Shown here: piece after piece, positions 7,920-64,000 of the stretch
Layout of the letters: every line of letters begins with the position of its first letter
Position numbering within the stretch: position 1 is the first letter of the stretch
Origin: Rhynchopus sp. YZ270_cl-10
Taxonomy: Eukaryota; Euglenozoa; Diplonemea; Diplonemida; Diplonemidae
Assembly: GCA_964035575.1 (NCBI GenBank)
Contig: OZ037835.1
Location: 930,001-994,000 of the forward strand
Length of the DNA: 64,000 nucleotides
Reading direction: 5' to 3'
Translations under genes and position numbers: made by a program
Notes under the pieces: generated by a model
The model's input: the letters and a program-made list of their open reading frames with translations, nothing else
What the model was told of the DNA's origin: nothing
Databases searched by the model: none

Positions 7920-9606
7920 AAAGAAACAATCGTTTGATTATAGCTGATTACCGTGAGGGCAGTTAGCCACGTTTATTTTTCTCACAAGGTCTACAAGTAT
8001 CAAGATACAAAACCTCGTGTGCTTAAAAGGGGGTTACATTCATTCAAAAAAAGAAAAAAAAGAAAAGAACAAAAAAAAAAAATCTGGAACATTGATGTGC
8101 ACAAATTTCACACGCAGATTGCAGCAAAAAAAAAATATTTAAAAAATCGGCAATCCAAAGTTTTGAAAAAAAAATTCTTTCTTGGTTGGATACGCTTACC
8201 AGAGGGTGTCAAAAAAGGTAAAAGGGGATTTGAAAGTTTGTTTTTGTATTTGTTTTTATTTTTGCTACTCTGTTTGTTTTAAGGTAAAAGGGGATGAGTG
8301 TGTCAAAATAGAACCCCCTTTCGTCTTTTGTTGAGTTAGTACGTGACCAACTAAACAAAAAGTATCAGACGTTTGAGTCATTTCCCACAAAGTATTTGTC
8401 CTAATAGAATTTTTTTTTGTTTGATTATAGACTACTATCACTAGCAATCCACGATCTTTCTTCACAGGAATCCTTATTAGAGAACAGATACCCCAACACC
8501 TCTTTAGAACCGCTGCGTACCGTGGCTTCGCCAGAAACCTCTGGGTGCCATGTTCCACCACGTCTTTTATAGATGTACTGAGAAGTTACTGATGAGAAGG
8601 CGGACACCCAACTACCACTTGTGGTTTCACCCCCTCCTCTCCACCCGCCTTTCACGATTTTGTGCATCAGAGGGGGGAGAAAGAGCCTCACCTCCCTGTA
8701 TTGACAGGAAGTCGCCAAGGAGTCGCGGCCGTTTTTATGGGGGGAAACCTCGGGACCCCCAAAAAATCGCTAAAAATGAAGGGGAAAAAAAAAAGATGAT
8801 GACTCATCGGACCCCCCCTGACTGGAAAGGGGGGTTTGAATGGGCTTTTATGAAGCTTTTGTTATGTTTGCTTTGTGCTCTTGTTTTGTTTTTTCTCTTT
8901 TTTGTTTTTTTTTTTTGTCAAAAATATGATGACTCATCCGACCCCCCTGACTGGAAAAGGGGGGAGGGAAAAAAAAGTTTTTCGCAAATAGAAAAAGAAT
9001 CTCATCAAAAAAGTAAAAAAAATCTCTCAAAAAAAATTGGGCGGGAAATTGAGGAAAGGAAACAAGCCTATTGATCAATGGTATGCGAACATGGCTGAAA
9101 GAAAAATCCTTCAAAAAAAAAATCCTACAGGCCCGTCGCTCCCTTTGCCATTTGTGGCTTTTTTTTATTATTCTCATTGTGTTGTGTTGTGTTTTTGTTT
9201 CGTTGTGTGGTGTTCCCGAAAGGGCCCATATTGACAGGTCCTTGACATGTCCTTGACATGTCCTTGACACAAGGTTTACAGGGGAAAATGACACACCCCC
9301 CCTATATTGACATGTCCCCGACAGCAGATCGGTAACACCATTGTGGTATCAACAAATAAAATAGAATCTGTGGTGTTCCGAAAGGGGCCTATATTGACAT
9401 ATGGGTCAGTCCATAAACCCACCCCCCTAAAAGGTAATCAAAGCATATCCTTGACAGGTATTCAAGAACATCAATCTACCTTTCGGGATATGCCTAGCGA
9501 ATAAACCAAATTGCAGGCAACTCACCTTCATGTTTGATTCTATTTCCTCTTCGAAAAATGCAAAAAATAATAAAAAATAAAAAAAAAAAAACTACTCATG
9601 TCATTA
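7920..9606. other. Intergenic with element fragments, no gene seen
   Basis: About 8490-8580 is an inverted scrap of the hAT-element family (block GGTTTCTGGCGAAGCCACGG on the minus strand). A direct repeat with GACTCATC..ACCCCCCTGACTGGAAA occurs at about 8799 and 8930. Short repeats of TCCTTGACATG and a TATTGACA word occur at 9230-9460. Remaining frames are low complexity. Confidence 0.5.
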
Positions 9607-10125
9607 CTGGGGGGGAGCTATTAAAGTATACGTATACTTTATTCGGCGGGAATTACTGCTTAAATGGCCAAAAAACGAAAAGGGAAAAAAAAAAAAAAAT
9701 CACTGTTATTTTGGGGCTTCTAGTGGCCGAAACCTCGCGAAAACACCACCATTGACATTTTTGGGCCAATCCCAGCCAGTGGTGGGGTCAATGTGGAAAA
9801 ATGAACAATTTTTTGGTGACTTAAATTTTCACAAATCTGAACCCTATCAGCACCAATCGTGTAAAAACTGATACACGCGTTTTAGGTCAAAAATACTCAT
9901 TTCTCAGCGCAAAGTGACCCCATCACAGCACGCACAGAATCCGGACCACCGAAATCAAAAAAAAAAAATTTCGATTTTTTGTGCAAAAAATGCTGTAAAA
10001 AAATTTTAGTAAGAAAAATGTACACAAAAACCGTATACTTTATTTCACAGATTTCCACGCTCAAAATGGGTTTCCGCACCGTATACTTTATTACCCCCGT
10101 ATACTTTATTAGCCCCCCCCCCCAG
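9607..10125. mobile_element. TA-flanked inverted-repeat element, 519 bp
   Basis: Left end CTGGGGGGGAGCTATTAAAG and inverted right end (CTTTATTAGCCCCCCCCCCCAG), both flanked by TA. The word GTATACTTTATT appears four times near the ends. Size, ends and TA flanks suit a Tc1/mariner-like non-autonomous element. No transposase frame. Confidence 0.65.
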
Positions 10126-14851: not shown

Positions 14852-17137
14852 TTAAAAGCTACGCTTGGAGGTATAACAAAATTTGGTGTGGCCGACGACC
14901 CCAAAATAGCAGAAAATAGCAGAAAATAGTACCCCCCCTTCAAGCCACACCAAAAAATGGTTAGTTTGAGTGTCAAAAATCATACCCCATGAGTTCTCAT
15001 GCCACTTTGCAAGGTTCGCCACAAGCGCAGCCTCTGCTGCGGTTGGCTCTGTTCCAGTGAGCCTGTTGTTGTTGATGATGAGCTGTGCCATCTTATGCTG
15101 CCCCGCCTCGTAGTGGTGGAAGCTTCCTGTCATCCTGTTGTTGTATCCCTTGAACATCTCGACAGAGGTTCCTGCGAAGTTTGGCAGCACGCCGTCGAAG
15201 AAGTTGTTCGAGATGTCGATCTCCGTCGCCAATGGCGTCGACTCCGGGTCGTACGACCCTGTCAGCGAGTTGCTGTGGAACGACCCGAGGAGCAGGTTCG
15301 GGAACGCTGCCGGAAGCGGACCGGAGAAGTTGTTTGTATCAATGACCATACGCTTCACAGAGTTCGACTGCGGAACGGGCCCGGTCAGGAGGTTGTTGTT
15401 CACAATGAAGTTGATGATGTTAGCGGGGAGCGGCAGCGGCACCTCCCCTGTCAGCTGGTTGTCCTGCACCTCAATGTGCATCGCTGTCGGCGCAAAGGTC
15501 GGGAAGGCTCCTGTCAGCCCAGCCCCACGCGCAATGATTTTGACAAGCCCAGGAAGGTTAGCCACAACGCTCGGGATTGGCCCATTAATCGGGGTATGCG
15601 AAAACGACACCTCAACCAACGAAGAAGCAAACCCGTCAAAGCCATTTGCCATCGTCGAGTCGACAATGAAGGAGGTCATATACTGCATCTTCGAGAAGTC
15701 GTTGACACGCGCCGTCAAGGTGCCCTGCCCTGCCATGTTGAACGCCACAACACGCTGGTCGCCGTTACAGCTAATCCCAGGCCACGTACAGTAATCCTCT
15801 CCGGTCCAGGACGCCATGTGTCCCCCTTGCTCTTCATCGTAGAAGCGAGCACGGTACTCTCTGAGGGTTGCAAGCTCATCAGCGCGGGTCGACCTAGGCA
15901 CGCAGGTGTACTGAAGGGAGAACCCTGCAGCCTCGATCATGTAGTTCGACTCGAATTTGACGACCGCAGGCCCCTCGAGAACCAGCTGGTGTGGCAGCGA
16001 CGCGAAGGCACCGTACTTCTCAAGCACCGGGACGAAGACCGCGGCGTCTTGGTTAGAGTAGACGTTCACGATGTCGTAGTACATCTCCGTCTCGAAGGCC
16101 ACGAACGAAGCTGTCACCTCCCCTTCACAGTCAAGCCTCCAACAGCGCTTCTCATCACTCCCATACGGTCCATGCGAGAGCGTGCCGTCTGCAGGAAGCA
16201 CCACGTTGACGGCGTTCGCGCACTCCTCATGAAATCCTGGTGGAGCTGGGATGAGTGGTGCATCGGTGGGGGCTGCCGTCGCATCGACGCAGGTGTACTG
16301 CATTTCAAAACCCTTTCCTTGAGTATTGTAGTCGCTTGCAAAACGGATCGCCATAGTACCCGATACGGTTACAACGACGTCGGCCTCACTTCCAGAGAAG
16401 GTGTCAACAGCGGAAGGTGTGTTTCCGTCGTAAGAGAAGATGGTCACCTCGTCGTATCCAAGCTCTGTGTCAAATTTGCGGAATGACGCAACAATAGTTC
16501 CATCACAATGCATCATCCAACAGAGGTTTTCATCTGGTGCATACCCAGATTCAAAAAAGTGGTTAATAACTCCGTTCTCAGACAACACGGTCTCCTCCTT
16601 GCAATGCTCCGGGAAAGGGACCATCGAGGGGATCGGTGTGTCCGGGACCGGAGGGGCAGGGGTAGGGGCAGAGCTTGGGGCGGGGGATGCATCGGGAGAT
16701 GTCGTGCCTTCGACGCAAACGAAACTGTATTCAATCCCGGTGCGCTCAACGGAGCTGTCAGAGGTGAGCTGGAGGACGGCGGTGCCGGGGTAGGCCTTCT
16801 CAGGGATGTTGTTGTGGGTGCCCGAGAATTGTTCGTCGCGTGTGTAGTATCCTGTTACCTTCTTCGAGTAGATGTTGATGTAGTCGTTGCCCGCCTCAGT
16901 TCTGATCCGCGAGAAGGTCAGAAGCACGTCCTGTCCTGCGGGGCAGTTGAAGCGCCAGCAGACGTTCTCGTTGCTTTCGTAGTTCCAGCGGGCCCCGCGG
17001 TACCCTGGGTAGTACCGGTCCCCAATGGTGTCGGTGACGGTGCTCATCTCCCCTCCGTTGCGGCATTCGTAAGGGTACTCCTCAGCATGCACAACAACCA
17101 TGGCGCAGAGCACCATACACAAAGTTATGGAATTCAT
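14852..17137 (-). CDS. Secreted CUB-CUB-CUB-LRR surface protein
   Basis: The ATG at 17137 is the first after a strong TTTTTTTTCAG acceptor (AG at 17159-17158) and begins a signal peptide (MNSITLCMVLCAMVVVHA). The 761-aa frame has three CUB-like beta-sandwich modules at about residues 25-141, 179-283 and 305-412, each with the C..W..C and Y-S-F/Y-T-C features; a Pro/Ala-rich linker at 143-176; an LRR N-cap at 418-468 with the SW..DYCTWPGISC signature; and leucine-rich repeats (N.LTG.P) at about 490-710. CUB and LRR modules bind proteins or glycans, so an extracellular recognition or adhesion role is inferred. There is no membrane anchor in the clear part. After residue 717 the frame becomes Phe-rich and improbable, and a donor GGTATGATT lies there, so the true protein may splice to exons at 14609 and 14475. 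Confidence 0.85.
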   Translation of the reverse strand: MNSITLCMVLCAMVVVHAEEYPYECRNGGEMSTVTDTIGDRYYPGYRGARWNYESNENVCWRFNCPAGQDVLLTFSRIRTEAGNDYINIYSKKVTGYYTRDEQFSGTHNNIPEKAYPGTAVLQLTSDSSVERTGIEYSFVCVEGTTSPDASPAPSSAPTPAPPVPDTPIPSMVPFPEHCKEETVLSENGVINHFFESGYAPDENLCWMMHCDGTIVASFRKFDTELGYDEVTIFSYDGNTPSAVDTFSGSEADVVVTVSGTMAIRFASDYNTQGKGFEMQYTCVDATAAPTDAPLIPAPPGFHEECANAVNVVLPADGTLSHGPYGSDEKRCWRLDCEGEVTASFVAFETEMYYDIVNVYSNQDAAVFVPVLEKYGAFASLPHQLVLEGPAVVKFESNYMIEAAGFSLQYTCVPRSTRADELATLREYRARFYDEEQGGHMASWTGEDYCTWPGISCNGDQRVVAFNMAGQGTLTARVNDFSKMQYMTSFIVDSTMANGFDGFASSLVEVSFSHTPINGPIPSVVANLPGLVKIIARGAGLTGAFPTFAPTAMHIEVQDNQLTGEVPLPLPANIINFIVNNNLLTGPVPQSNSVKRMVIDTNNFSGPLPAAFPNLLLGSFHSNSLTGSYDPESTPLATEIDISNNFFDGVLPNFAGTSVEMFKGYNNRMTGSFHHYEAGQHKMAQLIINNNRLTGTEPTAAEAALVANLAKWHENSWGMIFDTQTNHFLVWLEGGVLFSAIFCYFGVVGHTKFCYTSKRSF

Positions 17138-17157
17138 GATGTTTTTTTTTTTTTGTT

Positions 17158-17185
17158 CTGAAAAAAAAGGGGGGTAAAAGGGGAG
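17158..17185 (-). promoter_or_regulatory. Polypyrimidine-AG splice acceptor before CUB-LRR ATG
   Basis: Minus strand CCCCCCTTTTTTTTCAG ends 20 bases upstream of the ATG. It is suited to trans-splicing of a leader or to a 5'-UTR intron. Confidence 0.55.
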
Positions 17186-17251
17186 TAGGAATGAAAGGTG
17201 AAAGTGTAAAAGTGTAAAAGAAAAATTCGGTTTTTGCGTGTTGCGTATCAA

Positions 17252-51482: not shown

Positions 51483-52685
51483 TCACGAACACACACACCC
51501 ACTGCAGCGTGACTCAACAGTTGCCTGCAAGGGGGGCGGACGGGGACGAGGTGGACCATGTTGCAGGGCGTCCTGCTCTGACACCTGCATGTTGATGGCA
51601 GCAATGTCGAGCACCGAGATGACGTTTCCGACAACGACCAGCCTGCACCCGTCAGTCGAGGCATGCACAGACCACGTGCCATCTGCGTCGATGCGTCCCA
51701 TGGGGGCTCCACTGCGTGCGTCCCACTGCTGCACACTCCTGGTAGAGGCCGTGAAGAGGTATCGCGAGCACGCACTGAAACAGGCAGCATTCATCGCGTC
51801 ACCTCCGCTGGGCAGTGTGCAGAGGACCTGCCCGGAGTCCATGTCAATGGTGCGGACGGTGTCCTTGTAGCCACAGCTCAACACTGCGAGGCTTGCGTCA
51901 GGCGAAAATGACGGCCTCACAGAGGACGACCCCCTCATCCCTCTGTGCACACGGTGCACCTCACGCAGCTCAGGGGTGTCCAGACGGAACACCACAATTT
52001 CTGGGATTGCGTTGATCAATAACAGGGACTCGCAGGGTGACACTGCAAAGGGGTACCCACATTGAGCAATGGCACGCATCGTCACCCCCTCGCCGGAGTA
52101 CTGTAAGATCCGCTCCCTTTTCGCAATCAGCACCGTCTCGCTGACCCTCATGGCCACAAGCCTGTGAACCCTGCATCCCATACGTACCACAACCTCTGCA
52201 CCGCTGTCCCGCCGTCTAAAGTGCACAGCATTGCTCCCTGCATCACAGTAAACGATGTGGTGTGGCATGAGAACCATCTTGAACTGGGGTACGTCTATGG
52301 GAGGGAGAGGTGTGACCTCGGTGGTGACGAGGTTGATGGTGACGGCGTGTTCGCCACCCACTACGAGTGTGTCCTCGCATACGTCTGCGATGCAGCCTCC
52401 CACAGTATAGCGCTTCGGCACCCACACACCACTGCTGTCCTGCTTCCGTCTGCTCACATGGACAGTCCCGCCTGCGCACAGTGTGGTGTGGGCAATCAGA
52501 ACCTCCGGTGCCAGCACCTCACCATCAGCACCATCCACACACAGCCCCACTGCCTCGGCCGACACCACGCTCTGTGGGTACAACACCGCAACAGCACGCT
52601 CCTGCAGATCTGCAGCACTGCAACCCTCCCCCACCTCTGCAGCACAGCGTTTTCCAGATGTTGTGCATTCAAACCATATCTCCAT
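51483..52685 (-). CDS. Ubl-WD40 array gene 1
   Basis: 400 aa, complete, one exon. Residues 1-80 (MEIWFECTTSGKRCAAEVGE start, GTVHVSRR end) have the beta-grasp pattern of a ubiquitin-like domain. Residues ~88-365 form WD40-like blades: FAVSPCESLLL, SFSPDASLAVLSCG, CFSACSRYLFTAS followed by QQWDARSGAPMG, and ASTDGCRLVVVGN. The tail is Pro-rich and ends RCSGCVCS. It differs from its siblings at short windows such as PIDVPQFKM (129-137), DAGSNA (148-153), AKRERIL (188-194) and GYKDT (272-276). No enzymatic motif; beta-propellers bind proteins or peptides, so a recognition role is inferred. The ATG follows CCCCCTCTCAG by 14 bases, as in all copies. Confidence 0.8.
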   Translation of the reverse strand: MEIWFECTTSGKRCAAEVGEGCSAADLQERAVAVLYPQSVVSAEAVGLCVDGADGEVLAPEVLIAHTTLCAGGTVHVSRRKQDSSGVWVPKRYTVGGCIADVCEDTLVVGGEHAVTINLVTTEVTPLPPIDVPQFKMVLMPHHIVYCDAGSNAVHFRRRDSGAEVVVRMGCRVHRLVAMRVSETVLIAKRERILQYSGEGVTMRAIAQCGYPFAVSPCESLLLINAIPEIVVFRLDTPELREVHRVHRGMRGSSSVRPSFSPDASLAVLSCGYKDTVRTIDMDSGQVLCTLPSGGDAMNAACFSACSRYLFTASTRSVQQWDARSGAPMGRIDADGTWSVHASTDGCRLVVVGNVISVLDIAAINMQVSEQDALQHGPPRPRPPPLQATVESRCSGCVCS

Positions 52686-52699
52686 TGTGTGGTCACTGT

Positions 52700-53443
52700 C
52701 TGAGAGGGGGCGGTGGGAGAAGCAGGGTGTCGGTGTGCTGAGTGGATGGGGGATGTTTGAGTGAATGGAACAAAGGTTGCTTTTGTGAGATGAATGTGCA
52801 CCTCCCAGCTACACACCATCTGCAGTGATCCAAGAACACATAGGGAGGGGTTGTGTGAGGTCGAAATGGTTCAGGGGTGGGATCTTGTTTTTGTTTTCTT
52901 TTCCAAACTCATGAGAGAAGATAGGATGGCTGCAACATCCTTTGGTTGGGTAAGCAGCCTCACCGAAGCCTTTGCTTTGCATGTTTAAGAGAAGGGGTAA
53001 CACAGAGAAGAGTTGAGATGAACCTAAGCCTCTCTGTGCTTGGACACCTCATAAAAGGGAAGCAAGATGCAACAACACAAACCGATACACACAGTGGTAT
53101 GATGATCTTGTGCAGAGCGAGATGTGGTTTTGGGTTTCTTTTTGGGTCTCGACTAAATGTCAAATGTAATTTCGATATTTTCAAAATCTTTTTTTCGAGA
53201 TCTCGATTCTCCCTGTCAACAGTACATAACGACTTTCTCGTGTATAAAATTTAGCAAGAAATTTTATTCTTCCTTTTGTCTACAAACATACGAAGCGTTA
53301 CGTGTACGGTTTTTAAGGAAATAATTCAAACCGACATGATTCCTCATCATTGTATAAAAAAGAACACAAAACCCCCCCACCACAACAGACGAGCCACTAC
53401 ACAAATAACACCTCACAGACTCATCTTGGGCACACCCTCCCCT
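52700..53443. other. Array spacer 1/2 (758 bp), with acceptor and motif H
   Basis: Minus strand CCACCGCCCCCTCTCAG (AG at 52701-52700) is the presumed trans-splice or 5'-intron acceptor of gene 1. Spacer sequence is strongly conserved between copies, including an initiator-like run of T and the AATTTCGATATTTTC block. No gene on either strand; plus-strand frames are shadows. Confidence 0.6.
53014..53050 (-). other. Hairpin motif H, array copy a
   Basis: GAGATGAACCTAAGCCTCTC, TGTGCTTGGACACCTC. About 330 bases before gene 1 and 394 bases past the stop of gene 2. Confidence 0.75.
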
Positions 53444-54724
53444 TCACGAACACACACACCCACTGCAGCGTGACTCCGTTGCCACAACAGTTCCTTTCAA
53501 GGGGAGCGGACGGGGACGGGGGGGGCCATGTTGCAGGGCGTCCTGCTCTGACACCTGCATGTTGATGGCAGCAAGGTCGAGCACCGAGATGACGTTTCCG
53601 ACAACGACCAGCCTGCACCCGTCTGTCGAGGCATGCACAGACCCGCAAACCCGCAAACCGACAGACCACGTGTCGGTATACACAGACCACGTGTCATCTG
53701 CGTCGATGCGTCCCATGGGGGCTCCACTGCGTGCGTCGTACTGCTGCAAACTCCTGAGAGTGACAGTGAAGAGGTATCGCGAGCACGCACTGAAACAGGC
53801 ACCGTATATAGTGTCACCTCCACAGCTCAGTGTGCAGAGCGTCTGCCCGGATACGATATCAATGGTGCGGACAGTGCGCTTCTCGCCACAGCTCAACACT
53901 GCGAGGCTTGCGTCGGGCGAAAATGAGGGCCGCAAACAGGACGTCCCGCTCGACCCTCTGTACAACCCTGTGTCCATACAGTGCACCAGACGCAGCTCAG
54001 GGGTGTCCATACGGTACAATGCAGAAGGTCGGTATCCATTGCTCAATAACAGAGACTCGCAGGGTGACACTGCAAAGGAACACCCATAGTGATCAATGGT
54101 ACGCATCTTCACCCCCTCGCAGGTGTACTGTACGATCTTCTTACTGGTCCCAATCAGCACAGCCTCCGTGACCCGCATGGCCACAAGGCGGTGAACCCTG
54201 TACTCAACCGTGCGTGCCACACGTACCACAACCTCTGCACCGCTGTCCCGCCGTCTAAAGTGCACAGAAGTGCCAAGTACACCACAGTAGACGATGTGGT
54301 GTGGCATGAGAACCACCAGGCACAGACGTCCGAGTCCACTAGGGAGAGGTGTGACCTCGGTGGTGACGAGGTTGATGGTGACGGCGTGTTCGCCACCCAC
54401 TACGAGTGTGTCCTCGCATACGTCTGCGATGCAGCCTCCCACAGTATAGCGCTTCGGCACCCACACACCACTGCTGTCCTGCTTCCGTCTGCTCACATGG
54501 ACAGTCCCGCCTGCGCACAGTGTGGTGTGGGCAATCAGAACCTCCGGTGCCAGCACCTCACCATCAGCACCATCCACACACAGCCCCACTGCCTCGGCCG
54601 ACACCACGCTCTGTGGGTACAACACCGCAACAGCACGCTCCTGCAGATCTGCAGCACTGCAACCCTCCCCCACCTCTGCAGCACAGCGTTGTCCAGATGT
54701 TGTGCATTCAAACCATATCTCCAT
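53444..54724 (-). CDS. Ubl-WD40 array gene 2
   Basis: 426 aa. N-terminal 125 residues are identical to gene 1 apart from K12Q. The central blades carry another sequence set (GVLGTS, GTSKKIV, GYRPSALY, GEKRT, TVTLRS), and an internal duplication adds YTDTWSVGLRVCGS before ASTDGC. Its central blades match gene 5 almost exactly, while its first blade (PSGLGRLCLV) matches gene 3. Ends with the same ATESRCSGCVCS tail. Confidence 0.8.
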   Translation of the reverse strand: MEIWFECTTSGQRCAAEVGEGCSAADLQERAVAVLYPQSVVSAEAVGLCVDGADGEVLAPEVLIAHTTLCAGGTVHVSRRKQDSSGVWVPKRYTVGGCIADVCEDTLVVGGEHAVTINLVTTEVTPLPSGLGRLCLVVLMPHHIVYCGVLGTSVHFRRRDSGAEVVVRVARTVEYRVHRLVAMRVTEAVLIGTSKKIVQYTCEGVKMRTIDHYGCSFAVSPCESLLLSNGYRPSALYRMDTPELRLVHCMDTGLYRGSSGTSCLRPSFSPDASLAVLSCGEKRTVRTIDIVSGQTLCTLSCGGDTIYGACFSACSRYLFTVTLRSLQQYDARSGAPMGRIDADDTWSVYTDTWSVGLRVCGSVHASTDGCRLVVVGNVISVLDLAAINMQVSEQDALQHGPPRPRPLPLKGTVVATESRCSGCVCS

Positions 54725-54738
54725 TGCGTGGTCACTGT

Positions 54739-55541
54739 CTGAGAGGGGGCGGTGGGAGAAGCAGGGTGTCGGTGTGCTGAGTGGATGGGGGATGTTTGAG
54801 TGAATGGAACAAAGGTTGCTTTTGTGAGATGAATGTGCACCTCCCAGCTACACACCATCTGCAGTGATCCAAGAACACATAGGGAGGGGTTGTTTCAGGT
54901 CGAAATGGTTTATGGGGTGGGATCTTGTTTTTGATTTCTTTTTCAAACTCATGAGAGAAGATAGGATGGCTGCAACATCCTTTGGTTGGGTAAGCAGCCT
55001 CATCGAAGCCTTTGCTTTGCATGTTTAAGAGAAGGGGTAACACAGAGAAGAGTTGAGATGAACCTAAGCCTCTCTGTGCTTGGCCACCTCATAAAAGGGA
55101 AAGCAAGATGCAATAAAACAAACCGACAGTCAACAACACAGTCGTGCAAAGATCTTTGTGCAGAGCGAGATGTGGTTTTGGGTTTCTTTTTCGAGTCTCG
55201 ACTAAATGTGAAATGCAATTTCGAGCTCTCGATTCTCCCGGCCAACAGTTGATAAAGATTTCTTGTGCAAAAAATTCGAGAACAACCCCGGGAGACACAA
55301 ACGTGTACGATCACAGGCCTTGCCACTCCGCAAGCTGTTGTGTTGTTTCCCCACTGCACGGTGCTGGTTGTGGCGTGTGAAAAAGCTAAACAAAGCATCT
55401 GTCAGAAGTTTCTATTTCCTGTTGCAAGAAATTGGTATAACAATAAACACACACACACAAACTTCCTCATCTCACTCAGCTCAACAACAAACAGCTTCAA
55501 TCACCCGCAGACGCACGGCCCAACGAACCACACCCTCCCCT
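54739..55541. other. Array spacer 2/3 (817 bp)
   Basis: Same acceptor and first ~350 bases as spacer 1/2, then a diverged half (around 55300-55480) shared only with the spacer upstream of gene 5 (61460-61565). Two spacer types therefore exist. Confidence 0.55.
55054..55090 (-). other. Hairpin motif H, array copy b
   Basis: As in copy a but with TTGGCCACCTC at the right arm. Confidence 0.75.
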
Positions 55542-56744
55542 TCACGAACACACACACCCACTGCAGCGTGACTCCGTTGCCACAGCAGTTCCTTTCAAGG
55601 GGAGGGGACGGGGGGGACCATGTTGCAGGGCGTCCTTCTCGGATACCTGCATGTTGAAGTCAGCAATGTCGAGCACCGAGATGACGTCTGCTACAACAAG
55701 CAGCCTGCACCCGTCTGTCGAGGCATGCACAGACCACGTGTAGTTGTTGCGGATGCGTCCCATAAGGGCTCCACTGCGTGCGTCCCACTGCTGCACACCC
55801 CTGCTAGAGGCTGTGAAGAGGTATCGCGAGCACGCACTGAAACAGGCAGCATTAATAGTATATCCACTACCCAATGTGCAGAAGAATCGCCCGGAGACGA
55901 TGTCAATGGTGCGGACCCTGTACCTCTCACCATAGCGGAACACTGCGAGGCTTGCGTCGGGCGAAAACGACGGCCGGAAAGAGGACGGTCGCAAATGGGA
56001 CAAACCTGTGTCCACACGGTGCACCAGACTCAGCTCAGGGGTGTCCAGACGGTGCACCACAACGGAAGGGTTGTTGCTCAATAACAATGTCTCGCAGGGT
56101 GACACTGCAAAGCGGTACCCAGAGTGATCAATGGTACACATCTTCACCCCCTCGCAGGAGTACTGTACGATCTGTTTTCTGGTCCCAATCAGCACCGTCT
56201 CGGTGACACGCATGGCCTCAATGCTGTTCACCTCTTCACCCATACGTACCACAACCTCTGCACCGCTGTCCCGCGGTCTAAAGTACACAGCATAGGGTTC
56301 AATACAGTACACGATGTGGTGTGGCATGAGAACCACCAGGCACAGACGTCCGAGTCCACTAGGGAGAGGTGTGACCTCGGTGGTGACGAGGTTGATGGTG
56401 ACGGCGTGTTCGCCACCCACTACGAGTGTGTCCTCGCATACGTCTGCGATGCAGCCTCCCACAGTATAGCGCTTCGGCACCCACACACCACTGCTGTCCT
56501 GCTTCCGTCTGCTCACATGGACAGTCCCGCCTGCGCACAGTGTGGTGTGGGCAATCAGAACCTCCGGTGCCAGCACCTCACCATCAGCACCATCCACACA
56601 CAGCCCCACTGCCTCGGCCGACACCACGCTCTGTGGGTACAACACCGCAACAGCACGCTCCTGCAGATCTGCAGCACTGCAACCCTCCCCCACCTCTGCA
56701 GCACAGCGTTTTCCAGATGTTGTGCATTCAAACCATATCTCCAT
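55542..56744 (-). CDS. Ubl-WD40 array gene 3
   Basis: 400 aa. The most divergent centre: IEPYAVYF, GEEVNSI, GTRKQIV, NNPSVVVH, SHLRPSS, GERYRV, RNNYTW and VAD at the positions that vary elsewhere, while framework words (VLMPHHIVYC, FSPDASLAV, ACFSACSRYLF, DARSGA) are kept. The domain plan and the RCSGCVCS end are as in gene 1. First-blade sequence PSGLGRLCLV shared with gene 2. Confidence 0.8.
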   Translation of the reverse strand: MEIWFECTTSGKRCAAEVGEGCSAADLQERAVAVLYPQSVVSAEAVGLCVDGADGEVLAPEVLIAHTTLCAGGTVHVSRRKQDSSGVWVPKRYTVGGCIADVCEDTLVVGGEHAVTINLVTTEVTPLPSGLGRLCLVVLMPHHIVYCIEPYAVYFRPRDSGAEVVVRMGEEVNSIEAMRVTETVLIGTRKQIVQYSCEGVKMCTIDHSGYRFAVSPCETLLLSNNPSVVVHRLDTPELSLVHRVDTGLSHLRPSSFRPSFSPDASLAVFRYGERYRVRTIDIVSGRFFCTLGSGYTINAACFSACSRYLFTASSRGVQQWDARSGALMGRIRNNYTWSVHASTDGCRLLVVADVISVLDIADFNMQVSEKDALQHGPPRPLPLKGTAVATESRCSGCVCS

Positions 56745-56758
56745 TGTGTGGTCACTGT

Positions 56759-57503
56759 CTGAGAGGGGGCGGTGGGAGAAGCAGGGTGTCGGTGTGCTGA
56801 GTGGATGGGGGATGTTTGAGTGAATGGAACAAAGGTTGCTTTTGTGAGATGAATGTGCACCTCCCAGCTACACACCATCTGCAGTGATCCAAGAACACAT
56901 AGGGAGGGGTTGTTTCAGGTCGAAATGGTTTATGGGGTGGGATCTTGTTTTTGATTTCTTTTTCAAACTCATGAGAGAAGATAGGATGGCTGCAACATCC
57001 TTTGGTTGGGTAAGCAGCCTCACCGAAGCCTTTGCTTTGCATGTTTAAGAGAAGGGGTAACACAGAGAAGAGTTGAGATGAACCTAAGCCTCTCTGTGCT
57101 TGGCCACCTCATAAAAGGGAAGCAAGATGCAACAACACAAACCGATACACACAGTGGTATGATGATCTTGTGCAGAGCGAGATGTGGTTTTGGGTTTCTT
57201 TTTGGGTCTCGACTAAATGTCAAATGCAATTTCGATATTTTCAAAATCTTTTTTTCGAGATCTCGATTCTCCCAGTCAACAGTAGATAACGACTTTCTCG
57301 CGTATAAAATTTTGCAAGAAATTTTATTCTTCCTTTTGTCTACAAACATACGAAGCGTTACGTGTACGGTTTTTAAGGAAATAATACAAAACGAGATGAT
57401 TCCTCATCATTGTATAAAAAAGAACACAAAACCCCCCCACCACAACAGACGAGCCACTTCACAAATAACACCTCACAGACTCATCATGAGCACACCCTCC
57501 CCT
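56759..57503. other. Array spacer 3/4 (759 bp)
   Basis: Nearly identical to spacer 1/2 in length and sequence; same CCCCTCTCAG acceptor upstream of gene 3. Confidence 0.55.
57074..57110 (-). other. Hairpin motif H, array copy c
   Basis: Right arm TTGGCCACCTC; position relative to the genes as in copy a. Confidence 0.75.
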
Positions 57504-58739
57504 TCACGAACACACACACCCACTGCAGCGTGACTCCGTTGCCACAACAGTTCCTTTAAAGGTAGAATGCAAGGGGAGCGGACGGGGACGAGGTGGACCA
57601 TGTTGCAGGGCGTCCTGCTCTGACACCTGCATGTTGATGGCAGCAAGGTCGAGCACCGATATGACATGTATTTTGGAGACAACGACCAGCCTGCACCCGT
57701 CTGTCGAGGCATGCACAGACCACGTGTCGTCTGCGTCGATGCGTCCCATGGGGGCTCCACTGCGTGCGTCCCACTGCTGCACACTCCTGGTAGAGGCCGT
57801 GAAGAGGTATCGCGAGCACGCACTGAAACAGGCAGCATTTATCGTGGCTCCTCCGCTGGGCAGTGTGCAGAGGGCCTGCCCGGATACGATGTCAAGGGTG
57901 CGGACGGTGTGGTTGTCGCTAGAGCTCAACACTGCGAGGCTTGCGTCGGGCGAAAACGACGGTATCGGCCGCACCCAGGACGTCGTACCCATCGCTCCGT
58001 CCACACGGTACACCTCACGCAGCTCAGGGGTGTCCAGACGGAACACTGCAGAAGTTAGGTATCCGTTGATCAATAACAGGGACTCGCAGGGTGATACTGC
58101 AAAGGGGTACCCCCATTGATCAATGGCACGCATCTTCACCCCCTCGCAGGTGTACTGTACGATCCGATGACCCATCCCAACCAGCACTGTCTCGCTGACC
58201 CTCATGGCCACAAGGCTATAAACCCTGTCTGCCATACGTACCACAACCTCTGCACCGCCGTCCCGCGGTCTAAAGTGTACAACATTCCCCAGCGTACTAC
58301 AGTAGACGATGTGGTGTGGCATGAGAACGATCGTGCACCCAGGTACGTTTATGGGAGGGAGAGGTGTGACCTCGGTGGTGACGAGGTTGATGGTGACGGC
58401 GGGTTCGCCACCCACTACGAGTGTGTCCTCGCATACGTCTGCGATGCAGCCTCCCACAGTATAGCGCTTCGGCACCCACACACCACTGCTGTCCTGCTTC
58501 CGTCTGCTCACATGGACAGTCCCGCCTGCACACAGTGCGGTGTGGGCAATCAGAACCTCCGGTGCCAGCACCTCACCATCAGCACCATCCACACACAGCC
58601 CCACTGCCTCGGCCGACACCACGCTCTGTGGGTACAACACCGCAACAGCACGCTCCTGCAGATCTGCAGCACTGCAACCCTCCCCCACCTCTGCAGCACA
58701 GCGTTGTCCAGATGTTGTGCATTCAAACCATATCTCCAT
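57504..58739 (-). CDS. Ubl-WD40 array gene 4
   Basis: 411 aa. N-terminus differs from gene 1 at three positions (Q12, A68, P113). Variable windows read PINVPGCTI, STLGNV, ADRVYSL, GMGHRIV, GYLTSAV, GAMGTTSW, SDNHT and SKIH. The Pro-rich tail is longer (LPLHSTFKGT). The partial gene at the window end has the same STFKGT insertion, so those two share a tail type. Confidence 0.8.
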   Translation of the reverse strand: MEIWFECTTSGQRCAAEVGEGCSAADLQERAVAVLYPQSVVSAEAVGLCVDGADGEVLAPEVLIAHTALCAGGTVHVSRRKQDSSGVWVPKRYTVGGCIADVCEDTLVVGGEPAVTINLVTTEVTPLPPINVPGCTIVLMPHHIVYCSTLGNVVHFRPRDGGAEVVVRMADRVYSLVAMRVSETVLVGMGHRIVQYTCEGVKMRAIDQWGYPFAVSPCESLLLINGYLTSAVFRLDTPELREVYRVDGAMGTTSWVRPIPSFSPDASLAVLSSSDNHTVRTLDIVSGQALCTLPSGGATINAACFSACSRYLFTASTRSVQQWDARSGAPMGRIDADDTWSVHASTDGCRLVVVSKIHVISVLDLAAINMQVSEQDALQHGPPRPRPLPLHSTFKGTVVATESRCSGCVCS

Positions 58740-58753
58740 TGTGTGGTCACTGT

Positions 58754-59496
58754 CTGAGAGGGGGCGGTGGGAGAAGCAGGGTGTCGGTGTGCTGAGTGGA
58801 TGGGGGATGTTTGAGTGAATGGAACAAAGGTTGCTTTTGTGAGATGAATGTGCACCTCCCAGCTACACACCATCTGCAGTGATCCAAGAACACATAGGGA
58901 GGGGTTGTTTCAGGTCGAAATGGTTTATGGGGTGGGATCTTGTTTTTGATTTCTTTTTCAAACTCATGAGAGAAGATAGGATGGCTGCAACATCCTTTGG
59001 TTGGGTAAGCAGCCTCACCGAAGCCTTTGCTTTGCATGTTTAAGAGAAGGGGTAACACAGAGAAGAGTTGAGATGAACCTAAGCCTCTCTGTGCTTGGCC
59101 ACCTCATAAAAGGGAAGCAAGATGCAACAACACAAACCGATACACACAGTGGTATGATGATCTTGTGCAGAGCGAGATGTGGTTTTGGGTTTCTTTTTGG
59201 GTCTCGACTAAATGTCAAATGTAATTTCGATATTTTCAAAATATTTTTTTCGAGATCTCGATTCTCCCAGTCAACAGTAGATACCGACTTTCTCGCGTAT
59301 AAAATTTTGCAAGAAATTTTATTCTTCCTTTTGTCTACAAACATACGAAGCGTTACGTGTACGGTTTTTAAGGAAATAATTCAAACGGACATGATTCCCC
59401 AAAATTGTATAAAAAAGAACACAAAACCCCCCCACCACAACAGACGAGCCACTACACAAAACACCTCACAGACTCATCTTGGGCACACCCTCCCCT
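58754..59496. other. Array spacer 4/5 (757 bp)
   Basis: Near-copy of spacers 1/2 and 3/4, with the same acceptor upstream of gene 4. Confidence 0.55.
59069..59105 (-). other. Hairpin motif H, array copy d
   Basis: Right arm TTGGCCACCTC, as in copies b and c. Confidence 0.75.
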
Positions 59497-60756
59497 TCAC
59501 GAACACACACACCCACTGCAGCGTGACTCCGTTGCCACAACAGTTCCTTTCAAGGGGAGGGGACGGGGACGGGGGGGACCATGTTGCAGGGCGTCCTGCT
59601 CTGACACCTGCATGTTGAAGTCAGCAAGGTCGAGCACCGAGATGACGTTTCCGACAACGACCAGCCTGCACCCGTCTGTCGAGGCATGCACAGACCCGCA
59701 AACCCGCAAACCGACAGACCACGTGTCGGTATACACAGACCACGTGTCATCTGCGTCGATGCGTCCCATGGGGGCTCCACTGCGTGCGTCGTACTGCTGC
59801 ACACTCCTGAGAGTGACAGTGAAAAAGAGGTATCGCGAGCACGCACTGAAACAGGCACCGTATATAGTGTCACCTCCACAGCTCAGTGTGCAGAGCGTCT
59901 GCCCGGATACGATATCAATGGTGCGGACAGTGCGCTTCTCGCCACAACTCAACACTGCGAGGCTTGCGTCGGGCGAAAATGAGGGCCGCAAACAGGACCC
60001 TCTGTACGACCCTGTGTCCATACGGTGCACCAGGCGCAGCTCAGGGGTGTCCATACGGTACAATGCAGAAGGTCGGTATCCATTGCTCAATAACAGAGAC
60101 TCGCAGGGTGACACTGCAAAGGAGCACCCATAGTGATCAATGGTACGCATCTTCACCCCCTCGCAGGAGTACTGTACGATCTGCTCACTCGTCCCAACCA
60201 GCACAGCCTCCGTTACCCTCATGGCCACAAGCCTGTGAACCCTGTCTGCCATATGTACCACAACCTCTGCACCGCTGTCCCGCGGCCTAAAGTGTACAAC
60301 ATTCCACAGTGAACTACAGTAGACGATGTGGTGTGGCATGAGAACCACCTTGCACAGACTTCCACCTACGGGAAGGAGAGGTGTGACCTCGGTGGTGACG
60401 AGGTTGATGGTGACGGCGTGTTCGCCACCCACTACGAGTGTGTCCTCGCATACGTCTGCGATGCAGCCTCCCACAGTATAGCGCTTCGGCACCCACACAC
60501 CACTGCTGTCCTGCTTCCGTCTGCTCACATGGACAGTCCCGCCTGCACACAGTGCGGTGTGGGCAATCAGAACCTCCGGTGCCAGCACCTCACCATCAGC
60601 ACCATCCACACACAGCCCCACTGCCTCGGCAGACACCACGCTCTGTGGGTACAACACCGCAACAGCACGCTCCTGCAGATCTGCAGCACTGCAACCCTCC
60701 CCCACCTCTGCAGCACAGCGTTGTCCAGATGTTGTGCATTCAAACCATATCTCCAT
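59497..60756 (-). CDS. Ubl-WD40 array gene 5
   Basis: 419 aa from the ATG at 60756 used by all siblings; the frame stays open upstream to 61074, but that stretch crosses the conserved acceptor and is spacer. Early windows (SSLWNV, ADRVHRL) resemble gene 4; from the third blade on (HYGCSFAV, GYRPSALY, GEKRT, TVTLRS, and the YTDTWSVGLRVCGS duplication) it matches gene 2. The join makes it a recombinant of the two. Tail as in gene 2. Confidence 0.8.
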   Translation of the reverse strand: MEIWFECTTSGQRCAAEVGEGCSAADLQERAVAVLYPQSVVSAEAVGLCVDGADGEVLAPEVLIAHTALCAGGTVHVSRRKQDSSGVWVPKRYTVGGCIADVCEDTLVVGGEHAVTINLVTTEVTPLLPVGGSLCKVVLMPHHIVYCSSLWNVVHFRPRDSGAEVVVHMADRVHRLVAMRVTEAVLVGTSEQIVQYSCEGVKMRTIDHYGCSFAVSPCESLLLSNGYRPSALYRMDTPELRLVHRMDTGSYRGSCLRPSFSPDASLAVLSCGEKRTVRTIDIVSGQTLCTLSCGGDTIYGACFSACSRYLFFTVTLRSVQQYDARSGAPMGRIDADDTWSVYTDTWSVGLRVCGSVHASTDGCRLVVVGNVISVLDLADFNMQVSEQDALQHGPPRPRPLPLKGTVVATESRCSGCVCS

Positions 60757-60770
60757 TGTGTGGTCACTGT

Positions 60771-61571
60771 CTGAGAGGGGGCGGTGGGAGAAGCAGGGTG
60801 TCGGTGTGCTGAGTGGATGGGGGATGTTTGAGTGAATGGAACAAAGGTTGCTTTTGTAAGATGAATGTGCACCTCCTGCTACACACCATCTGCAGTGATC
60901 CAAGAACACATAGGGAGGGGTTGTGTGAGGTCGAAATGGTTTATGGGGTGGGATCTTGTTTTTGATTTCTTTTTCAAACTCATGAGAGAAGATAGGATGG
61001 CTGCAACATCCTTTGGTTGGGTAAGCAGCCTCACCGAAGCCTTTGCTTTGCATGTTTAAGAGAAGGGGTAACACAGAGAAGAGTTGAGATGAACCTGAGC
61101 CTCTCTGTGCTTGGACACCTCATAAAAGGGAAGCAAGATGCAATAAAACAGACCGACAGTTAACAAACAACACAGTCGTGTAAAGATCTTTGTGCAGAGC
61201 GAGATGTGGTTTTGGGTTTCTTTTTGGCGACTGAAAATGTGAATAATGTAATTTCGATATTTTCAAACTCTTTTTCGAGATATCGATTCTCCCAGTCAAC
61301 AGTAGATGACGACTTTTTGTGTAACACCTTCGAGAAGAATATTAGAACCCGACTTCAGAATATGATGAGAGAAGTAATACCGAATAAAAAGTTCTAGTTA
61401 TGTGACGGACAAAGAAAAACAAGACGGGGCAAACGCTTATTTCGTTTGACACTCAGCAAGCTGTTGTGTTGTTTCCCCACTGTACGATGCTGGTTGTGGC
61501 GTGTGGAAAAAGCTTAACGAAGCAACAGTCAGACTTTTCTCCTTTACCCTGTTGCAAAAAATTGGTACCGG
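60771..61571. other. Array spacer 5/6, proximal part
   Basis: Acceptor and motif as in the other spacers, then the spacer 2/3 type sequence (CTGTTGTGTTGTTTCCCCAC at 61460), cut at 61571 by inserted elements. Confidence 0.5.
61086..61121 (-). other. Hairpin motif H, array copy e
   Basis: GATGAACCTGAGCCTCTCTG, TGCTTGGACACCTC; one stem base changed (CTGAGC), leaving a G-U pair on the plus-sense reading only. Confidence 0.7.
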
Positions 61572-62886
61572 GGGGTATGTAACTTTGTGTATTAGTGTGT
61601 AAAATTTGACCGGCCCTTTGGGTGAAAAAAGAAAGAGTGAGGGGAGTTGGGTCCAGTCATAGGGGGTATAGCATATTTTTTGGAAAATTCTTCAAAAAAG
61701 CAAGGATTTTTGCTGGGCACAATGAAATTTTCAGAAAAATCCCGATTTTCGGCCAAATTTGGAGCAAATTATGACCCACCCACCCCGATTTTGGGTCAAA
61801 AACCGACTTCATTTTTGCACAGGAGTGCTTACGATTTCGTAAACCAGGGGTCCTCTGGATGCATGCATTGATAAACACAACACTGGAAATTGCAAGGAAC
61901 GGGTCTGCATGCGTGTTCTCTAGCCACTACAGTCACAGGGTATTGCGGCTGAATTTTGACTTGCGAAATTTTTTCGCGAACATCTATTTCTGAGGTTTTC
62001 TTTGGATTCTTTGGGCCATTTTATGACCTACCACGCCCGATTTTGGGCGATAAAACAAAATTTTGTCAGGTCAAACTCCGTACTTGTGAAAAGAATTGCT
62101 AAGGAAATGTGAAATATGCGTGTTTTTGTACACGAAATGTGGGCCCCTGTAGTAATGCATAAGGTGCATAATGCATATGGTTTACACCCAGCTCGTCAAA
62201 ACACCCGATTTTTGCGTTTTTTTGCACTTTTTGGTGCCCAAAAACCCAACTCAGGGGTCGAAATTTTCCCGAAAAAAAAATTTTTTTTTTTGAGATTTTT
62301 TGATTTTTTGACAAGGCGCTGGCCCATACAAAATGCACTGGTGGTGCAGAAAATGACTGGGGAATTAACTCTAGATGCTCAAAACAGCCCAATTCTTGCT
62401 TTTTTTGACTTTTTGGTCCCAGAAGGGGACCTAGGGTGTAGTGAGCAGGCCTCAAAAACACTTGTGAAAAAAAAATTTTGGGATTTTTTTTTTTGAGATT
62501 TTTTCAAAAATCGACTTGTTTTTGGTAAAAATCACGAAATTTTGGGTTCGCGGAACCGCGTTTTAGACCCCCCGAGATGCTCAAAAGTGCCAAATTTTGC
62601 TTTTAATGGCCTCAAATCGTCGAAATTAGCCCAATATAGGGGCAAAAAAAAAAATTCGAGGGTCTAGGTATGGAGAGCGAGCACCTTAGAAGCGTCGTAG
62701 GCAACCCGTGTTTTTTGTGTATAAATAGTACCCGGTCAAAATGCCGGTCAAAATGGGGTGCCGGTCAAATTACATACCCTATTTTGACCGGGTACTATTT
62801 GTACACAAAAATACCCGATTTTTTCGGGAATTTTTGACAACACACTGGTTTAGTTACCGGTCAGAACCGGTCAAATTACATACCCC
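61572..62886. mobile_element. Element family E, second copy, ends GGGGGGTATGTAA
   Basis: The left end GGGGGGTATGTAAC..TTTGACCGG returns inverted at 62855-62886. The interior repeats the ATGACCTACCACGCCCGATT and TTTTGCTTTTAATGGCCTC blocks of 26165-26945. It sits in the last array spacer, lengthening it to 3.2 kb. No coding frame. Confidence 0.65.
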
Positions 62887-62888
62887 CC

Positions 62889-63221
62889 ACCGTAAAAATA
62901 TTTATTCTGGGCTGTAACTATTCTGAGACAGAAGTATACTGGACCGGAACAAAACTGGAACACTTGGGGTTTTTGGGGGTGTCCCAGTTTTGTTCCGGCC
63001 CAGAACAGTTCTGTTGGGGTAGAATTTTTATCCCCATTCCCACCCCACCCAGGTGCATAGTGCATCTTTGGGCAAAAAAAATTCGTCGCACTCCTCGTTT
63101 TTTTTGACAAGGCACGGATACCCCCCCAAAACAATGCTGGTACGGAACAAAACTGGAACAATCGACGATTTTTTGGGGTGTTCCAGTTTTGTTCCGGCCC
63201 AGAATAAATATTTTTACGGTA
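62889..63221. mobile_element. 333-bp inverted-repeat element
   Basis: Ends ACCGTAAAAATATTTATTCT and the exact inverse at 63198-63221; two inner hairpins of GGAACAAAACTGGAACA with TGTTCCAGTTTTGTTCC. Confidence 0.85.
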
Positions 63222-63227
63222 TATAAA

Positions 63228-63467
63228 AATGCTCGAGAGACTCGTTCCTCTTTGCTTGTTGCTCAAAAGACTATAAACGGGGGGGGAAAAAGTAAAAGTT
63301 GTTTGTTGTTCGCTTCCTTTTTTTTTTCTTTCTTCTTCGACTTGATTTACGATATGGATGTGTTTGCCTGAAGTACAGAAAGTGTCGTGGAGCACAGGGG
63401 GGAAAAGAGGGGAAACAAGCGGGGAGCGGATACGCCGACGCGCGACTTTTCACGAGGGTCTCGAGCA
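63228..63467. mobile_element. AAAATGCTCGAGA inverted-repeat element, copy B
   Basis: Same 13-base ends as 35609-35862, about 240 bp long; adjacent to the previous element. Confidence 0.65.
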
Positions 63468-63926
63468 TTTTGTCAAATACTACGTGTTTACTTTAAAAAA
63501 AAAAACACAAACAACCCCCCACCACAACAGACGAGTCACTTCACCAATAATACCTCACAGCCTCATCTTGGGCAAATGCCCTGTGCAGGAACTAGACAAA
63601 AACTGATGTTCACACACATCACACATAACCCTTTCCCTCACAAAGCCCTGCACAGGAACTATGCAGAACGCATTTCCACATTCCTTTCTTCCTCATCTCC
63701 CTCAGCTCAACAAACAGCTCCAATCACCCGCAGGCCCATGCCGTAGAAGCACGACCCAACGAACCACTACTGCTGCTCTGCGGCAGGACACGTCAGGGAC
63801 AGCAACACATTCGCACCACGTCTGTTCACAAGCATGTCTCCGAGAGTCGACCCACCTGCCGAGCAGTGCTCCTTCGCCACCTGCATGAAGTAGCCTGCCT
63901 CCAGCACTGTCGCCACACCCTGGCCT
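63468..63926. other. Array spacer 5/6, distal part
   Basis: Resumes the spacer sequence (CACCACAACAGACGAG, then CAATCACCCGCAG), with an extra ~170 bases before the sixth gene's stop codon. Confidence 0.5.
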
Positions 63927-64000
63927 TCACGAACACACACACCCACTGCAGCGTGACTGCGTTGCCACAACAGTTCCTTTAAAGGTAGAACGCAAGGGGA
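63927..64000 (-). CDS. Ubl-WD40 array gene 6, C-terminal end only
   Basis: The last 24 codons on the minus strand read LRSTFKGTVVATQSRCSGCV and end CS; the gene continues past the window end. Tail type matches gene 4. Confidence 0.75.
   Translation of the reverse strand, partial: PLRSTFKGTVVATQSRCSGCVCS

Follow-up and report, generated by a model that had tools for sequence, protein, structure and literature searches.

A large family of WD40-fold propeller genes diversified on one face, with a possible role in non-self recognition

What could a row of neighbouring genes be recognizing, if the proteins share a constant start and then differ from one another at regular intervals? The question is raised by a 64,000-nucleotide stretch of genomic DNA (contig C3, positions 930001-994000; hereafter, the window), which holds, on its minus strand, a head-to-tail array of five complete genes plus the final part of a sixth (Table 1). 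The original prediction, made from the letters of the window alone, was that six head-to-tail copies encode a ubiquitin-like N-terminus and a WD40-like propeller with variable windows on one face; the array is as it described, with five complete open reading frames (ORFs) and a sixth straddling the window edge. As detailed below, the genes belong to a large family whose predicted propellers vary on one face, and we are highly confident that this face is a putative binding surface diversified under selection.

An AlphaFold2 model based on 57 family members shows a seven-bladed WD40 propeller spanning residues 90-365 (gene 1 numbering is used throughout), with the seventh blade closed by a d strand from residues 91-92. 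The mean predicted local distance difference test score (pLDDT) is 66.8 and the predicted template modelling score 0.66; ten-residue blocks of the propeller score 75-91, except for 67 at 91-100, 62 at 201-210 and 60 at 361-370, and confidence is poor for residues 1-89 and 368-400. The 50 Foldseek matches listed are mostly to G-beta, RACK1 on ribosomes and WDR61 (E values 3e-13 to 1e-11, template modelling scores normalised to the target of up to 0.75, identity 11-18%), so that model and matches together bear out the propeller that had been proposed. The Pfam WD40 cut-off (27 bits) was reached by neither gene scanned, the best scores being 17.5 bits for gene 1 and 14.4 for gene 2, and one database member (P0026) has a precomputed PF00400 match. 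By its modelled fold the family is a WD40 propeller; the sequence profile alone does not support membership.

The differences between copies follow the geometry of this fold. Smoothed entropy over 43 genes, numbered by gene 1, peaks at residues 98, 114, 134, 150, 172, 190, 210, 228, 253, 273, 297, 315, 335 and 354, with an extra peak in the tail at residue 386. Over residues 91-360 the period is 20.0 (spectral power 33.3, whereas 300 ordinary shuffles peaked at 11.7 and 300 that moved whole 5-residue blocks peaked at 25.2), in agreement with the spacing of ~20 residues initially noticed. Each of the twelve windows first reported lies within 3 residues of an entropy peak, but the propeller has 14, the added two, at 98 and 114, being visible only on comparison with other arrays. 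Likewise, the near-invariance attributed to the first ~125 residues holds inside the window array but stops, family-wide, at about 82-90, and the tail, described as nearly invariant, is conserved over its last ~10 residues but variable and proline-rich at about 380-390.

Loops and strands were classified from DSSP strands after the entropy profile was known, with residues 91-92 and 259-260 counted by hand. All seven d-a and all seven b-c loops, which share the top face of a WD40 propeller (PMC1805685), have mean entropies of 1.21-2.44, whereas the loops of the opposite face (seven of seven a-b, six of six c-d) have 0.09-0.44. With 14 of 14 loops variable on one side and 13 of 13 conserved on the other, the expected placement of the windows on a single face stands. 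Of the 68 propeller sites with entropy >1.5, 48 fall in the variable-face loops, which make up 67 of the 270 propeller residues; the other 20 are mostly strand residues, five of them adjoining variable-face loops. No two of the 43 genes have the same variable face. Trp, Asn, His, Gly, Lys and Pro are overrepresented at the variable loop sites, where Ile and Val are scarce, and in some blades an invariant Val separates two variable sites (172-174, 153-155), the same arrangement as that of Podospora codons 7/9 and 25/27 (PMC1805685). As a separate observation, genes 2 and 5 carry, near gene 1 residue 338, a 15-residue insertion that repeats part of a d-a loop (TWSVYTDTWSV), which suggests loop growth by small duplications.

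Of the 44 distinct genes that were read as DNA, all but C29:639864, whose frame is broken, entered the selection analysis; the genes read stand for 44 of 64 copy places, two copies on C29 being identical. The ratio of nonsynonymous to synonymous divergence (dN/dS, Nei-Gojobori) is 1.24 in the variable-face loops (codon bootstrap 1.02-1.53), whereas opposite loops have 0.25 (0.16-0.39) and strands 0.71 (0.56-0.90), consistent with the original expectation of a ratio above 1 at the variable sites and below 1 in the framework. Within closer groups the variable-face ratio is 1.44 on C3 (1.03-2.09), 1.68 on C8 (1.12-2.84), 1.23 on C29 and 2.09 for four close genes on C33 (1.02-6.27). Entropy at codon positions 1, 2 and 3 is 1.31, 1.20 and 0.83 for the 39 most variable sites, in reverse of the order at 130 framework sites (0.10, 0.07 and 0.24). 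A single-tree FUBAR-like test placed 49 of 378 sites above 0.9. Of these, 47 belong to the propeller: variable-face loops account for 28, strands for 18 and an opposite loop for 1. Neutral simulations, eight replicates each, yielded 0-1 false positives when the data shared one tree, but 32, 17, 4, 13, 3, 12, 25 and 6 when each block had a different tree; because of these 3-32 false positives, the single-tree test was demoted and block trees were used instead. The block-tree test retains 32 positive sites. The variable-face loops account for 22 of them (out of 66 sites), the opposite loops for none (out of 61), the remainder of the propeller for 9 and the region beyond the propeller for 1, with 0 in residues 1-90; five matching neutral simulations gave 0, 1, 0, 0 and 0 false positives. 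We also weighed and rejected a mutator limited to certain bases, such as a diversity-generating retroelement: at the variable sites every codon position shows all four bases, with no adenine-only signature.

Faces also appear to be reassorted between genes. The 14 windows differ almost independently of one another, their distance matrices correlating at r 0.18 for neighbours and at 0.04 for windows separated by at least five. Going from blade to blade, a gene retains its nearest relative in 54 of 258 steps (a raw count, with no null model behind it), and in 211 of 301 cases that relative is on the gene's own contig. Genes 2 and 3 are identical over residues 92-139, and genes 2 and 5 differ by 0.8% over 262-344. 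Of 903 pairs in a GENECONV-like test, 16, of which 8 join different contigs, passed the 95% threshold set by 300 null maxima, and four pairs, all within C3, beat the largest null value. Linkage falls with distance over 231 informative sites (correlation -0.064, the lowest of 500 shuffles being -0.040) and over all third positions (reached in 0 of 2000 shuffles), but the 34 framework third positions alone show no such fall (768 of 2000 shuffles reach the observed value), and for this reason the evidence for exchange rests on the window matrices, the all-site linkage and the identical runs. To judge from these sequence comparisons, the copies are mosaic.

The 5' end behaves differently from the rest of the gene. 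Pairwise difference among the 43 genes drops from 7.6% at -100 through 2.1% at -40 to 1.1-1.5% in the coding bases up to 200, then climbs to 4.4% at coding 200-260 and to 19.5% after that; upstream of the block it is 20-58%, and downstream of the stop 35-48%, with fewer comparable columns there. The first 246 coding bases differ by 1.8% even between contigs. For residues 1-82 the synonymous and nonsynonymous differences per site (pS and pN) are 0.032 and 0.012, compared with a synonymous divergence of 0.131 in the opposite loops. Such a uniform block would need either conversion of the block or constraint on its DNA. Just before the ATG, most of nine upstream sequences compared have a pyrimidine-rich run ending in CAG, splice-acceptor-like by appearance.

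How far the family extends was determined by a six-frame search of the genome (152.4 Mb, 126 contigs) with gene 1, which gave at least 91 matches (104 of 320 candidates scored). At least 64 near-full-length copies reside on 14 contigs (C3, C5, C8, C12, C19, C21, C29, C33, C38, C41, C57, C58, C60 and C91); 63 of them are matches of at least 67% identity that begin at residue 1 and extend to residue 388 or beyond, and the other is gene 5, which matches in separate pieces. All but one (63 of 64; the exception is C29:654125) are free of internal stops, and shorter or broken copies occur on C3, C8, C12, C29 and C33. A search with residues 1-90 listed 75 matches: 65 that begin at residue 1 and extend to 85 or beyond (the 64 copies and the broken C29:639864), 4 fragments, and 6 matches at 31-41% identity on C2, C5, C7 and C91 that sit in frames of 383-449 codons. 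Distant paralogues are located at C3:2147525, C91:223647, C5:233323 and C43:809818. Among the matches listed from a search of 5.8 billion proteins, 61 are family members and 3 are generic WD40 proteins covering 17-28% of the query. Because 38 of the 61 are identical, letter for letter, to one of the 44 DNA-derived proteins, all were taken to come from the same organism. No relatives outside it were found among the protein candidates scored or in viral contigs, where none of 7 pattern matches was confirmed as a relative.

Both ends of the protein lie outside the propeller and are shared by the copies. The ubiquitin-like character assigned to the N-terminus in the original prediction was not confirmed: residues of this domain have no Pfam ubiquitin match and no match among Protein Data Bank (PDB) sequences, their hhalign score was reached by 16 of 200 shuffles, and the separate model, with a strand-strand-helix-strand order, has a pLDDT of 41. 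A ubiquitin-like fold is nonetheless plausible. Indirect support comes from two neighbouring genes for ubiquitin-like, leucine-rich-repeat (Ubl-LRR) proteins, whose N-termini score 27.5 and 25.8 against the Pfam ubiquitin cut-off of 25.4; the longer has at least 185 matches in the genome, pieces included (best 110 of 2515 candidates scored). A truncated family copy lies beside these genes on the opposite strand (C3:1017903-1018793, +). Elsewhere, more than 30 of 150 listed matches to the ubiquitin family are in separate small frames on C31, at about 985-1485 kb, and polyubiquitin genes are found on other contigs. At the other end, CVCS terminates 42 of 44 DNA-derived proteins (in C5:1459135 the end is altered and in C29:639864 the frame is broken) and 55 of 57 database members, with further Cys upstream. 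From its CaaX-like form, we infer that this tail may be prenylated, and PF00432 prenyltransferase matches occur at three places in the genome.

Table 1 Features of the gene array and of neighbouring loci
Feature	Coordinates	Strand	Description	Basis
Gene 1	51483..52685	-	400 aa; constant N-terminal domain, seven-bladed propeller, CaaX-like tail	ORF and AlphaFold2 model
Gene 2	53444..54724	-	426 aa	ORF
Gene 3	55542..56744	-	400 aa	ORF
Gene 4	57504..58739	-	411 aa	ORF
Gene 5	59497..60756	-	419 aa counted from the conserved ATG; mechanical ORF begins upstream at 61074	
Gene 6	C3:993927-995165	-	412 aa; in the window the 3' end alone, 63927..64000	
Gene 1 residues 1-82	52440..52685	-	Near-invariant N-terminal domain; possibly ubiquitin-like at most; low-confidence fold	
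Gene 1 5' block, about -100 to +250 around the ATG	52436..52785	-	Nearly uniform among 43 genes	
Gene 1 residues 90-365	51591..52418	-	Predicted seven-bladed WD40 propeller, 14 variable d-a/b-c loops	
Gene 1 residues 397-400, CVCS	51486..51497	-	CaaX-like C-terminus	
Two Ubl-LRR genes	C3:1016932-1017768 and C3:1019773-1020891	-	About 22 kb beyond the window; Pfam ubiquitin and LRR_5 matches exceed their cut-offs	

Other features were recorded in and around the window. Between genes 5 and 6, at 61567-62894, lies a dispersed repeat with copies of ~1.3 kb at 98-99% identity on C27, C1, C80, C34 and C43, many partial ones, and at least 76 matches genome-wide (best 40 of 2685 candidates scored). 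A 799-aa frame at 14852-17251 (-) has CUB domains and leucine-rich repeats above Pfam cut-offs, and an Rfam scan of the window gave no matches. Ankyrin-repeat genes are present beyond gene 6 (L039:5578-6999 and 9143-10000, both on the minus strand, within C3:995578-1000000), the first of them covered by a Pfam scan. Three loci on C21 and C3 (L003, L006 and L007) have frames of 1745-1770 codons with WD40 repeats, preceded in L003 and L006 by a conserved RHKSLGEHLAARRLARDP stretch; to judge by eye from a three-way alignment, they differ mostly at places in the repeats that resemble d-a and b-c. On C64, C25 and C18, equally long frames have both NACHT and WD40 matches.

How might such a family work? 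In the simplest reading, the face would choose the ligand and the rest of the protein would report it. The variable d-a/b-c face of each copy would bind a different ligand, the constant N-terminus would couple every copy to one common partner, perhaps in the ubiquitin system, and a prenylated C-terminus would hold the protein on the inner side of a membrane; membrane anchoring we regard as probable. New faces would arise by point change, small indels in loops and short gene-conversion tracts between copies, and diversifying selection would keep them. Self/non-self recognition, which we infer, enters as a proposal about purpose: further repeat families of types that serve recognition are encoded in this genome (NACHT-bearing WD40 frames, Ubl-LRR and ankyrin), and it is these, together with the many open copies, that make non-self recognition our first choice, with about an even chance of being the purpose. 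With moderate confidence, then, we read the genes as a lineage-expanded family for intracellular recognition, most likely of non-self (viruses, intracellular bacteria or their products). More tentatively, they could form a membrane-anchored innate repertoire of non-NLR type (NLR, NOD-like receptor) within a wider arsenal of NACHT/WD40, Ubl-LRR and ankyrin proteins, in which conversion would keep the 5' block uniform and selection would keep the faces different.

Several observations weigh against this interpretation. The variable-face ratios are modestly above 1, with lower bounds of 1.02-1.12; the d strands alone reach a dN/dS of 1.18 family-wide, and in the C33 group the opposite loops, too, are at 1.01 (bootstrap 0.24-1.78). 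Among same-residue fourfold codons, third bases differ in 0.218 of pairs in the variable-face loops versus 0.106 in the opposite loops (0.137 in strands, 0.020 in residues 1-82). The variable loops may either escape homogenisation, and carry older alleles, or mutate faster; with synonymous divergence raised about twofold, selection may not be the sole source of the variation, to which age or mutation rate may contribute. As for the ends, the N-terminus lacks supported homology by Pfam, PDB sequence, hhalign or fold, and the a2 position of CVCS is Cys, which is unusual for a CaaX motif.

Among the alternatives, allorecognition fares best, although we consider it rather unlikely. Individuals would differ in their sets of faces, and mismatched contact or fusion would lead to rejection, as with fungal het genes; the loops involved and the type of selection are indeed those of the het-d and het-e WD40 domains (PMC1805685). 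However, 64 copies in one genome are far above the 10-member Podospora family, and the Pfam scan of genes 1 and 2 revealed no death domain. The proteins could instead be substrate adaptors of the ubiquitin system, with the face picking targets, possibly foreign ones, the N-terminus, if ubiquitin-like, docking on a ligase or the proteasome, and diversification tracking the targets. The Ubl-LRR neighbours that pass the Pfam cut-off and the arrays of ubiquitin-like genes elsewhere in the genome fit this proposal, which we consider unlikely; for the N-terminus of the family itself, neither Pfam nor PDB sequences nor hhalign supported a ubiquitin fold. Parasites and predators commonly have large diversified arrays and, if the organism is one of these, the faces might bind varied outside targets as effectors or prey- or host-contact proteins; this is improbable, because the proteins start with MEIWFECT, without an evident signal peptide by eye, and their CaaX-like tail suggests an intracellular membrane protein. 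Finally, relaxed constraint, whereby solvent loops drift and copies diverge without any selected function of the variation, would account for the raised synonymous divergence in the same loops but is very improbable in view of the strongly constrained a-b and c-d loops of the same propeller, the bootstrap bounds above 1 and the open frames of nearly all copies.

The family can be compared with several known systems. G-beta, RACK1 and WDR61 share the seven-bladed fold at the low identities given above. These are conserved single genes and are not known to form families diversified on a face. In the same genome, L004 (C45) has an N-terminal domain of similar start followed by WD40, but, unlike this family, its WD40 repeats are canonical (110.6 bits) and it has no CVCS tail. 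TRIM proteins are linked to ubiquitin biology; those of the fish finTRIM genes, TRIM with a B30.2-type domain, have different folds and lack a WD40 propeller. The finTRIM family is reported to be expanded and diversified by duplication and positive selection, as here (PMC2657112). Fungal NLRs with ankyrin or tetratricopeptide repeats (ANK/TPR) likewise have a repeat domain whose binding face is under positive selection, but have the NLR architecture and other scaffolds (PMC4986451). A further comparison is with het-d, het-e and het-r of Podospora anserina, which have in common with this family a WD40 propeller, variation of the d-a and b-c loops of one face under positive selection, and exchange between members (PMC1805685, PMC12222747); Paoletti et al. 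report that, in the HNWD genes to which they belong, the codons under selection map to the interaction face, at the b-c turn and the d-a loop (PMC1805685). The comparison with fungal HET/NLR WD40 proteins drawn in the original prediction is accordingly apt for the position of the variation but not for the architecture. Whereas het-d, het-e and het-r have HET and NACHT domains, NACHT had no match in the Pfam scan of genes 1 and 2 or among the precomputed domains of the listed members; whereas they have repeats of 80-100% identity inside one gene, here the variation is between separate genes, and gene 1 has no near-identical internal repeats, a direct-repeat search having returned one 26-nt pair in the N-terminal part. 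This family also differs from the HNWD genes in its constant N-terminus and its CVCS tail. Because both NACHT and highly identical internal WD repeats were absent in these tests, the family is not a fungal-type NLR, though it varies like one. No non-NLR WD40 family of this kind could be recognised by title and start of abstract among the openly licensed papers listed, and in the literature examined, diversification of one WD40 face is described for fungal NLRs (PMC1805685). The genes analysed here offer a clear case of one-face WD40 diversification in a different architecture, in which 43 distinct faces in one genome make the putative binding surface visible directly from the variation. Should our reading be true, one propeller and 14 loops would provide a simple system for learning how an intracellular repertoire diversifies and what it recognises.

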